Virus record (IMG/VR): IMGVR_UViG_3300042391_000824
Span: 1 to 20,166 of that record
Reading direction: 5' to 3' (one strand)
Length of the DNA stretch: 20,166 nucleotides
Origin: a virus
The notes under the pieces were generated by a model. It had not been told where the DNA came from. It made no database searches and saw nothing but the letters and a program-made list of their open reading frames with translations. The translations under genes and the position numbers were made by a program. Shown here piece after piece: positions 9,793-20,166 of this stretch; within the stretch, counting starts at the first letter, position 1; each line of letters opens with the position of its first letter.

Positions 9793-11292
9793 TTACAGAC
9801 AGAATCCAGAGTATCCATTTGCTCTACAATATGGACCCGGCCATGCACAATATGGTTCACCTTTTGGACAAGATGAACAAGTACCTGGACACGGGCAAGC
9901 GTATGGTGGACAGGCTGGACCATTGTGTTCAATGGAAACAAATGATTCATTATTTGTGGATGATGTTTTAGTTAAAAACAAATGTGCATTTTCTACTGAA
10001 ATGAACCATCCAGAAAATACTTTTTTAATTTGAATGTTTGAAGTAACTGTTTTTCTAACAAAATCAACCAGTCCTTCTGTTGTATTTAATAATAAAACAA
10101 CATCTCCAATTTGAACATCAAATAAGTTTTCAAATTGAATCTCATTATTTCTTTCAATTAAATAAGAAGAAACTCCCGTATCTTCCCAAGTACTATTATC
10201 ATCAAACGTTAATTCATGAATATATGTTAATAAATTTATCTTTTTTAAATTAGTAATTTTGTTTGTTGAATAAGTTGTACCACTTACTAATGTTTCGTAT
10301 GTTATAGCAAAATTTGTAGTATAAGATGAATTATCCGTACCATTTGGATTTGGGATATCAATTGTTTTAATTAAATCATTTACCTGTAATTCTACTGCGG
10401 TTTTAAATGTACCGTCTGCCATTTCAACTAAATCAGTGTCTAATAATTTTGGTAACCATCTATTGTTTATGGTTGTCACATAACTATCTCTATATTCAGA
10501 AGCTACCTCATATGTTTCACTATCATATATTACTTCGTTGAAAAATATATTTTGATTCAATTTAGTATATTGTCCAATTTGAATTGATTCTAATGTTGGT
10601 GGATACAATATATTTAAACTTCTTATTACTTTTATATGTCCTTCGAAATTATTAGTAGTGTTACAATAATTTTCCATTAAGAAGTAATCTGATGTGACAT
10701 TTTGTAAAATTGTATCTAATTCCAATTGAGTTGATACTTTATAAAACTTAGGAAATAATTCCTTATCATATTCAGGATATCTTGATTTTAAAATAAAATT
10801 AGGGTGCTCACCATTATCTGGTATTATTGTTATGTTTGATACTAATTGATTTGCTTCATCTAAATATGCAAATTGAGAACCAAATGATTCGGATTGAATC
10901 AGTTTTAAAAATTCTACCTTATCTCTACAATAGGTATCATCTACTAATGCGGTTGTATCATATGCACTTCTGATAATTAATGTTTCGGCATTATCCTCTA
11001 TAAATGGTATTGTGATGGAATTTTTTCCTACTCCGTGAAATTCATATACAATTGAACTACCACTATATTGAGCTTCTAACGCTTTGTTTAGCATTCCCAA
11101 ATCTCCAACATAATGTATTGATGTAAATCCATTGGTTTCAACAAATGCATATAATGATGTTAAATCTAAACAATCTATATCCGCTTCTATTTTTTCAGGA
11201 CCATCCCAGCCTAGTGCTGTATTGATTTCAATTGGTTTTAAATTACCATCTTTGTCGTACATAAAGTCCGAACCTATTAATACTGTTCTCAT
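9793..11292 (-). CDS. Large protein with degenerate Hint (intein-like) domain and Cys/Pro/Tyr-rich C-terminal tail
   Basis: This 499-residue protein has three parts. Residues 1-280 are not firmly recognised; YDKDGNLKPIEINTALGW (12-29) resembles the metal-binding strand of ATP-grasp enzymes. Residues about 282-457 look like a Hint fold: DLVEMADGTFKTAVEL (287-302, block A side), a second VQIGDVVLLL (393-402), GWFISVENAHLFLT (428-441, block F-like) and terminal IEHN (454-457). The expected block A Cys and block B TxxH His are not present, so splicing looks disabled. After HN comes a 42-residue tail with eight Cys, nine or so Pro and four Tyr, encoded by visibly GC-richer DNA. It is the first gene of the modification cassette. 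A virion or surface protein is plausible. Confidence 0.75.
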   Translation of the reverse strand: MRTVLIGSDFMYDKDGNLKPIEINTALGWDGPEKIEADIDCLDLTSLYAFVETNGFTSIHYVGDLGMLNKALEAQYSGSSIVYEFHGVGKNSITIPFIEDNAETLIIRSAYDTTALVDDTYCRDKVEFLKLIQSESFGSQFAYLDEANQLVSNITIIPDNGEHPNFILKSRYPEYDKELFPKFYKVSTQLELDTILQNVTSDYFLMENYCNTTNNFEGHIKVIRSLNILYPPTLESIQIGQYTKLNQNIFFNEVIYDSETYEVASEYRDSYVTTINNRWLPKLLDTDLVEMADGTFKTAVELQVNDLIKTIDIPNPNGTDNSSYTTNFAITYETLVSGTTYSTNKITNLKKINLLTYIHELTFDDNSTWEDTGVSSYLIERNNEIQFENLFDVQIGDVVLLLNTTEGLVDFVRKTVTSNIQIKKVFSGWFISVENAHLFLTKTSSTNNESFVSIEHNGPACPPYACPCPGTCSSCPKGEPYCAWPGPYCRANGYSGFCL

Positions 11293-12479: not shown

Positions 12480-12608
12480 TTATCTTCCTTGTCCACGATA
12501 ATCTTTTGGACGGGGTGTGTGTTTGTTATAAGCTTTCTTTGCTGAACCTCTTTTACGAGAGCCGAATGAAACCTTAGTTGATGTTAATGAACCTTTTGCT
12601 TTTGCCAT
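12480..12608 (-). CDS. Small highly basic protein, 42 residues
   Basis: From ATG 12608 to TAA 12480-12482 the product is MAKAKGSLTSTK... ending PKDYRGQGR. About a third of residues are Lys, Arg or His. Tiny basic proteins ending in YRGQGR occur, to my recollection, among Bacteroidota and crAss-like phage genes of unknown role. It has the clearest Shine-Dalgarno in the window (AAAGGAG, 9 bases before ATG), unusual here, suggesting strong expression. Its stop is one base from the next ATG. Nucleic-acid or capsid-interior binding would fit its charge; this is inference. Confidence 0.8.
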   Translation of the reverse strand: MAKAKGSLTSTKVSFGSRKRGSAKKAYNKHTPRPKDYRGQGR

Positions 12609-12650
12609 AAATTGTTACTCCTTTGTTTAGGAATAAATATATGGAAAAAA

Positions 12651-19490: not shown

Positions 19491-19850
19491 CTAACGAAAT
19501 AAATCTTTTCTACATTTCCATTTCATTTTATCCGCTAACTCATTGGCTTGAATTTCTAAGGGATTGTCGTAGTAATTGTAAATTGTATCGTATTCGTAGT
19601 ATTTTTTTGTGCTTTGTTTGTAGTGTACCCATTCATGTATAATAGTAGAAATGATTTCCACTACTGATGTATGCTTATTTTTATAAACTGAAATTATATT
19701 ATCTTCGAAATCATAATCACCACAATCATCGCCCGTACTATGCCACTCTAATTCGGGCAGGTACTTACGCCTGTAATTCAAGCCCACATTGCTTTTGCAC
19801 CAATTCATTACTCTTATGGCGTGATGTCTTTTAAATTGTTTTATATTCAT
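19491..19850 (-). CDS. SprT-like zinc metalloprotease
   Basis: This 119-residue protein carries HEWVH at 72-76 (HExxH zinc-protease motif with His72, Glu73 and His76) in helix IISTIIHEWVHYKQS, and a likely third ligand in NPLEIQANELADK (97-108). The N-terminus is a short helical domain with MNWCKSNVGLN. Small SprT-like peptidases occur in phages and act on unknown proteins. Some resemble SPRTN, which clears DNA-protein crosslinks. The stop is TAG. Its ATG is 12 bases after the structured RNA's T-run, so the RNA may act as its leader or attenuator. Confidence 0.82.
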   Translation of the reverse strand: MNIKQFKRHHAIRVMNWCKSNVGLNYRRKYLPELEWHSTGDDCGDYDFEDNIISVYKNKHTSVVEIISTIIHEWVHYKQSTKKYYEYDTIYNYYDNPLEIQANELADKMKWKCRKDLFR

Positions 19851-19861
19851 TCTATTAGTTT

Positions 19862-19969
19862 AAAAAAAGAACGGATTAGGTGGTCGCTTATTTTGATAAG
19901 GGGTAAATATAAAGGGAGTAACCAAGCAACCATTGTAGAATAGTGTTTATTCTGTCCTAATCCGTTATA
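19862..19969 (-). ncRNA. Candidate structured RNA: three-way junction closed by a terminator-like stem
   Basis: Just after a strong promoter (predicted start near 19969), the minus strand reads P1 5' arm AACGGATTAGG (19966-19956), then hairpin P2 AGAATA-AACAC-TATTCT (19953-19937), then P3 GGTTGCT (19931-19925) pairing with AGCGACC (19888-19882, one G-U), then the exact P1 3' arm CCTAATCCGTT (19880-19870), then CTTTTTTT. P1 is 11 perfect pairs closing about 75 bases. Promoter, closed fold and T-run suggest either a trans-acting small RNA of about 105 nt or a terminating leader controlling the protease gene 12 bases on. No known riboswitch or RNA family is recognised. Confidence 0.65.
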
Positions 19970-20165
19970 ACATAAAGATACGATTTATATTTTTATCAGC
20001 CAAATTATATTCAATCTTTTTATGTGAACTAAGTGTATAAAAATATCCTCTAAAAAATTTTGCGGTCCGACTGAATGGATGGATAAGGTCTATTCTCAGC
20101 TTTGATACCGATTGATTACACTCACACCTCTTTGTAACCCTTATGTGTGTTGAATTGTGGGGGTT
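19965..20165 (-). CDS. Possible 3' end of an upstream gene, cut by window edge
   Basis: A frame open from the window edge runs 66 codons to TAA at 19965-19967. The tail of the translation (for example KFFRGYFYTLSSHKKIEYN) has no recognised motif. The region is GC-richer than average, so an open frame by chance is possible, and the frame reads through the promoter at 19973-20003. Promoters overlapping preceding gene ends are common here, so it may be real. Only the neighbouring sequence can decide. Confidence 0.25.
   Translation of the reverse strand, partial: NPHNSTHIRVTKRCECNQSVSKLRIDLIHPFSRTAKFFRGYFYTLSSHKKIEYNLADKNINRIFML
19973..20003 (-). promoter_or_regulatory. Promoter for the structured RNA and metalloprotease gene
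   Basis: On the minus strand, TTG (20003-20001), 20 bases, then TATCTTTA (19980-19973). The predicted transcript start falls 3-6 bases from the first base of the P1 stem, so the RNA would begin almost exactly with its closing helix. Confidence 0.65.
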
Positions 20166-20166
20166 T

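Follow-up and report, generated by a model that had tools for sequence, protein, structure and literature searches.

A three-way-junction RNA of freshwater phages with a conserved loop complementary to ribosome-binding sites of several phage genes

Antisense RNAs directed against ribosome-binding sites (RBSs) are a known mode of control. The C4 antisense RNA of phages P1 and P7 and the SAR RNA of P22 pair with the RBS regions of phage mRNAs and lower their translation, while the RNAIII-type sRNAs of Staphylococcus use a C-rich loop, exposed on a stable fold, to cover the Shine-Dalgarno (SD) sequences of several mRNAs. To our knowledge, little is known of lytic-type phage sRNAs that act on several mRNAs of their own phage. 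The RNA described here is proposed, with a probability of roughly 0.64, to be a phage-encoded, trans-acting antisense sRNA of ~105 nt that would occlude the RBSs of several phage mRNAs. It would share with C4 and SAR that a phage-encoded RNA acts on phage RBS regions, but those RNAs belong to temperate phages, have a different fold and are encoded at or beside their target, whereas the present RNA is from phages that carry T4-like baseplate genes, and its several unlinked candidate targets lie 7–45 kb away. With the RNAIII-type sRNAs it has in common the stable fold and the open C-rich loop facing several SDs; there is no sequence relationship (no match in Rfam), and the RNA is phage-encoded, belongs to a Bacteroidota setting, is ~105 nt long and is built as a single three-way junction. 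If the proposal is correct, the new element would be a multi-target, self-directed antisense RNA in a Bacteroidota phage with T4-like baseplate genes, and a search of the open-access literature found no multi-target self-directed sRNA in Bacteroidota phages.

The DNA analysed, from here on the window, spans the whole of one 20,166-bp virus record in IMG/VR, and all the parts listed in the earlier note (a promoter, a perfect P1 of 11 bp, a P2 of 6 bp, a P3 of 7 bp and a T-run) are present on its minus strand. The promoter (19973–20004, minus strand) is of the Bacteroidota type, TTTG-N20-TATCTTTA (-33/-7), with TTTG at 20004–20001 followed by 20 nt and then TATCTTTA at 19980–19973. Alone such a pattern is no more frequent in the window than chance predicts (7 seen vs 4.5 expected) and it gains weight only because it is conserved, the boxes TTTGG and TCGTATCTT being invariant among the relatives (TTTGG in those contigs long enough to include the box). 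P1 starts 4–7 nt past the -7 box, which places the predicted transcript start at or just before P1, in agreement with the earlier suggestion that the transcript and the stem start together; the invariant boxes directly before P1 point to a promoter belonging to the RNA itself. A block of 22 nt, GTCGGACCGCAAAATTTTTTAG (20050–20071, minus strand), is situated ~45 nt upstream of the promoter and is kept invariant by every relative extending there. It is single-copy in the two records checked and is flanked in the relatives by noncoding DNA that is partly conserved over several hundred nt; a T-box-like look noticed by eye was dropped as an idea, and the block is not needed for the best explanation.

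The RNA together with its U-tract covers 19862–19967 (minus strand, as are all parts that follow), of which the covariance model R1 matches 19864–19967 with 103.7 bits. The 5' strand of P1, AACGGATTAGG (19956–19966), pairs with the 3' strand CCTAATCCGTT (19870–19880), and between them are found the P2 hairpin AGAATA/TATTCT (19937–19953) and the P3 stem GGTTGCT/AGCGACC together with the large loop that it closes (19882–19931), the latter containing the RBS-complementary seed GTTACTCCCTTTA (19910–19922). P1 is followed by the U-tract CTTTTTTT (19862–19869), a putative intrinsic terminator, which is U-rich across the relatives with a length varying from T4 to T7. The 11 bp of P1 enclose ~75 nt ahead of U4–U7 and do not form a compact hairpin, and the structure is absent from a simple terminator scan.

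The minimum free energy of the fold is -28.3 kcal/mol, compared with -12.5 ± 2.6 for shuffled sequences (z = -6.15). R1 was built from seven members with the two most divergent ones (L007 and L011) held out, and it recovered both of these, with E = 6e-13 and 3e-10 respectively. In a nine-row alignment 99.5% of the cells are paired and compensatory (double) changes are seen at 9/24 pairs, a number reached by 0/500 shuffles and followed at a distance by slid registers (at most 2). P1 has double changes in 4/11 pairs with 100% of the cells paired, P3 in 5/7 pairs; L011 alters four pairs of P1, and P3 is rebuilt in both L007 and L011. The nine-row alignment was fitted to the model and therefore favours the structure, but the double changes in P1 are plain as well in an unfitted MAFFT alignment. 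The P3 stem and the remaining loop vary while P2 and the junction bases are invariant in sequence, so that the compensatory changes looked for in all three stems were found in P1 and P3 and not in P2. With covarying stems and a fold far better than that of shuffles, the three-way-junction RNA is real, the earlier note having called it tidy enough for an RNA gene or an attenuator, and its family is absent from Rfam: the Rfam 15 covariance models gave 0 matches above the gathering threshold in the window, as anticipated by the remark that no known family fits. The opposite strand gave weak mirror matches only. Fold prediction gives a single fold, the check for alternatives being a shallow one, and the P1–P3 scaffold would hold the loop exposed and shield the RNA ends.

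When searching with the SprT-like protein encoded next to the RNA, 10 further contigs were found, each with the RNA directly before the SprT-like gene, and each of these 10 relative records has one clear copy of it. The RNA is carried by one family of freshwater phages. The exact P1 pattern was not found across IMG/VR, and a wider pattern of the RNA returned the same contigs plus chance matches in unrelated contexts only. Phage GenBank records contained no relative detectable by DNA or by two proteins, 246 genomes of the Chitinophagaceae family gave no copy of the RNA in a search run without a positive control, and five records reached via the cREC gene (see below) gave none either, as would be the case were the RNA located past the ends of these records. 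G012 matches G005 over 50.5 kb and G016 matches G010 over 40.8 kb, at 100% identity in both cases, and the two records therefore extend those phages. The members all belong to a single phage group, so that finding the RNA and the sites together represents few independent events. Five of the 11 contigs stop within ~900 bp upstream of the RNA (the window end at 20166 and the starts of L003, L004, L005 and L008), and consecutive paralogous genes with MLxIKN-type starts lie near those ends and may interrupt the assembly. The window also encodes a 499-aa protein (9793–11292, minus strand) with a cysteine-rich tail, for which no family match was found.

Directly downstream of the RNA, and its neighbour in 10/10 relatives, lies the SprT-like gene (19491–19850, minus strand), which has the motif HEWxHY and a weak match to PHROG 87 (E = 9e-5), and so looks like the metalloprotease gene named earlier. 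The RNA might accordingly be a cis-acting leader of this gene, an attenuator or riboswitch-like element in which binding of a ligand or a protein sets termination at P1 and the U-tract versus readthrough. The RNA keeps to one position, some tens of nt ahead of the SprT-like start, which fits such a leader. The U-tract ends a few to ~20 nt before the start codon, P1 with its U-run resembles a terminator, and the invariant junction bases could form a binding pocket. Against such a leader, the invariant unpaired loop is complementary to the RBSs of other genes, with matching changes; moreover, a shallow search showed no alternative antiterminator fold, and the top matches of the loop do not include the SprT-like start region. 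Because the RNA never leaves the side of the SprT-like gene, leader control of the protease is retained as a rather unlikely alternative.

The reading as an antisense sRNA starts from the loop of P3, where GUUACUCCYUUU is invariant and GTTACTCC-Y-TTT (RNA GUUACUCC-Y-UUU) is found in all members. The seed is conserved, single-stranded (mostly unpaired in the ensemble, weaker in L011) and, beyond what shuffled controls give, complementary to the start regions of mRNAs. Such an open, invariant loop carried by covarying stems suggests that it pairs or is bound in trans. Against this, complementarity of CUCCUUU is expected of any anti-SD-like sequence, specificity being added by GUUA alone.

In the window, the candidate target is the gene of a 42-aa basic protein (MAKAKGSLTSTKVSFG...; 12480–12608, minus strand), with the site AAAGGAGTAAC in its RBS region (12614–12624, minus strand). 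This site is situated 3–5 nt before the ATG of the 40–42-aa basic protein gene in the window and in the relatives covering the locus; in G003 and G006 it reads TAAAAGGAGTAAC, a perfect 13-nt complement to their own loops. The pairing comprises 8+3 bp in the window versus 11–13 bp in relatives: in the lineage of the window, which has a CCC loop, 8 bp form plus a further 3 beyond a C-A mismatch or a bulge (-12.7), and this site would pair better with the other loop type (-15.8 vs -12.7). In other phages, ~35 loci carrying the 42-aa gene's homologues were inspected; their starts are AT-rich and lack GGAGTAAC (GGAGTAA stands in L305), and the RNA was not found above chance in 77 loci holding such homologues. 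In the close relative L274, whose loop lies off the contig, AAAGGAGTAAC is replaced by AAAGGAATAAC before the 42-aa gene (upstream of 4338), from which an altered loop, or absence of the RNA, would be predicted in that phage. The 42-aa protein, ending in KxYxGQGR, is widespread in IMG/VR (at least 458 loci) and belongs to no functional family. A late-promoter-like block, CATATATTTATTC, precedes its gene, but a scan with it gave no clear regulon.

Further candidate targets are a gene encoding a cREC_REC domain (PF20274, E = 1e-21), a holin-like gene (a by-eye label for a protein with two TM segments, to which PHROG gives no function), the gene of a 216–217-aa protein starting MKAKLL and a gp25-like baseplate gene. 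The cREC site is GGGGGTAACC in G005 and G008 and GGAGTAAC in G010 and others, forming 11–12 bp with the loop, while the holin-like gene of G012 has the site AUAAAGGGAGUAAUU, in which 16 positions are paired with the CCC-type loop (-21.4). The gp25-like site is GGGGUAACC in G005 and GGGGUAAUG in G003. When comparing lineages, the loop GGUUACUCCC is matched by the targets GGGGGUAACC (cREC), GGGGUAACC (gp25) and AAAGGGAGUAAU (holin-like), and the loop AGUUACUCCUUU putatively by AAAGGAGUAAC, the site of the holin-like relatives in G013 and G014, records which themselves give no loop. Partners swapped between lineages pair worse for cREC, gp25 and the holin-like gene of G012, the own lineage being best, but the holin-like site of G010/G016 pairs slightly better with the loop of another lineage. 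Loop and targets appear, from these comparisons, mostly to change together, with this last site and the 42-aa site of the CCC lineage as exceptions.

Duplex energies calculated for 151 ortholog groups (mean -5.4, sd 2.2) put cREC at the top, its mean being -18.9 kcal/mol, with the 42-aa gene second at -14.6. When the loop columns were permuted the energy of cREC was reached in 0/300 cases and the mean of the 42-aa gene, among groups of eight or more, in 8/300 (p ~0.03). By a contiguous-helix score the same two groups stand out, scoring 11.67 and 10.6 bp where the group after them has 7.0; 0/200 permutations match the second rank and 2/200 the first. In single genomes, scored with G-U pairs counted half, the holin-like gene of G005/G012 reaches 15.0 and the 42-aa gene of G003 reaches 13 (0/100 shuffles each), and four starts in G010/G016 score at least 11 (shuffles 1/100 at rank 1, 0/100 at ranks 2–4); matches past rank 2 in G005/G012 and past rank 1 in G003 are not above chance. 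These figures bear on the idea that the fold serves as a structural RNA or as a site bound by protein, its RBS complementarity being due to chance and SD-like composition, as might be read from the sequence invariance of P2 and the junction, expected at a protein site, and from the p of ~0.03 by energy for the 42-aa match alone. Since two groups come out on top together, several targets show matching changes and rank 1 is reached by 0–1/100 shuffles in the single-genome tests, this is considered highly improbable.

The host is probably a freshwater Chitinophagaceae-like member of the Bacteroidota, as judged by an IscU-like gene of G005, a phage which carries T4-like baseplate genes, that is 79–85% identical to proteins of Chitinophagaceae and related Bacteroidota. 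Ribosomes of Bacteroidia reportedly ignore SD sequences, the 16S tail being hidden by bS21, bS18 and bS6, and SD use is confined to rpsU-like mRNAs (PMC9976891). No bS21 gene was detected in the 16 phage records (fragments), unlike the lake phages of PMC9723584, which carry bS21. Strong SD-like RBSs are uncommon in the present phages, and GGAG sites are followed by TAAC in 5/78 RBS groups (binomial p = 0.006, an enrichment that is mild by this measure since the background includes the sites themselves). As ribosomes of the host class mostly ignore SDs, the sites may be docking sites for the sRNA more than classical SDs. It is tentatively suggested, as a somewhat doubtful extension, that SD-like motifs on the genes of phages with SD-ignoring hosts do not bind ribosomes but dock a phage sRNA that times a regulon comprising holin-like, baseplate, small basic and membrane proteins. 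The extended-SD autoregulation of rpsU in Bacteroidia likewise rests on rare strong SDs but acts via bS21-free ribosomes and 16S rRNA (PMC9976891), whereas an sRNA is proposed here.

The rpsU genes of the host family carry strong SDs (AAAGGAGGU), and these, together with CUCC-UUU in the loop and ribosomes that ignore SDs except on rpsU-like mRNAs (PMC9976891), are what a general anti-SD decoy mimicking the 16S 3' tail and binding any strong SD, host rpsU mRNA included, would have in its favour. The loop lacks the CCUCC core, however, its conserved GUUA reaches past the SD complement, and host-family rpsU mostly pairs with it at -9 to -12 versus mostly -13 to -16 with the 16S tail (rpsU of L262 reaches -16.6 with the CCC loop), so that such a decoy seems very unlikely. 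Host rpsU as the main target was rejected, its pairing with the loop being mostly weaker than that of the phage sites. The earlier note had left open whether a stable RNA would act on host or phage mRNA; the latter branch is the better supported because the P3 loop complements phage RBSs.

Under the antisense reading, the RNA would be transcribed from the conserved host-type promoter and would end at P1 and the U-tract, and its P3 loop would pair in trans with the RBSs of the 42-aa, cREC_REC, holin-like, MKAKLL and gp25-like mRNAs. Pairing would block ribosome loading and thereby repress these genes, possibly with a role in timing, and the SprT-like protein may be made by readthrough or from another transcript. 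With an exposed loop that fits the RBSs of several of the phage's own genes, the RNA is probably a phage-made switch that holds them off. The named seed, the named targets and the natural co-changes of loop and target make the proposal testable, and it suggests another way to read SD-like motifs in phages whose hosts do not use SDs. A strong hairpin resembling an intrinsic terminator, GGGGATAAGAAATTATCCCCTTTTTT, precedes the start of the cREC gene (G005 oriented 25189; L073 14812, minus strand) by ~25 nt, a layout similar to that of the RNA and the protease gene.
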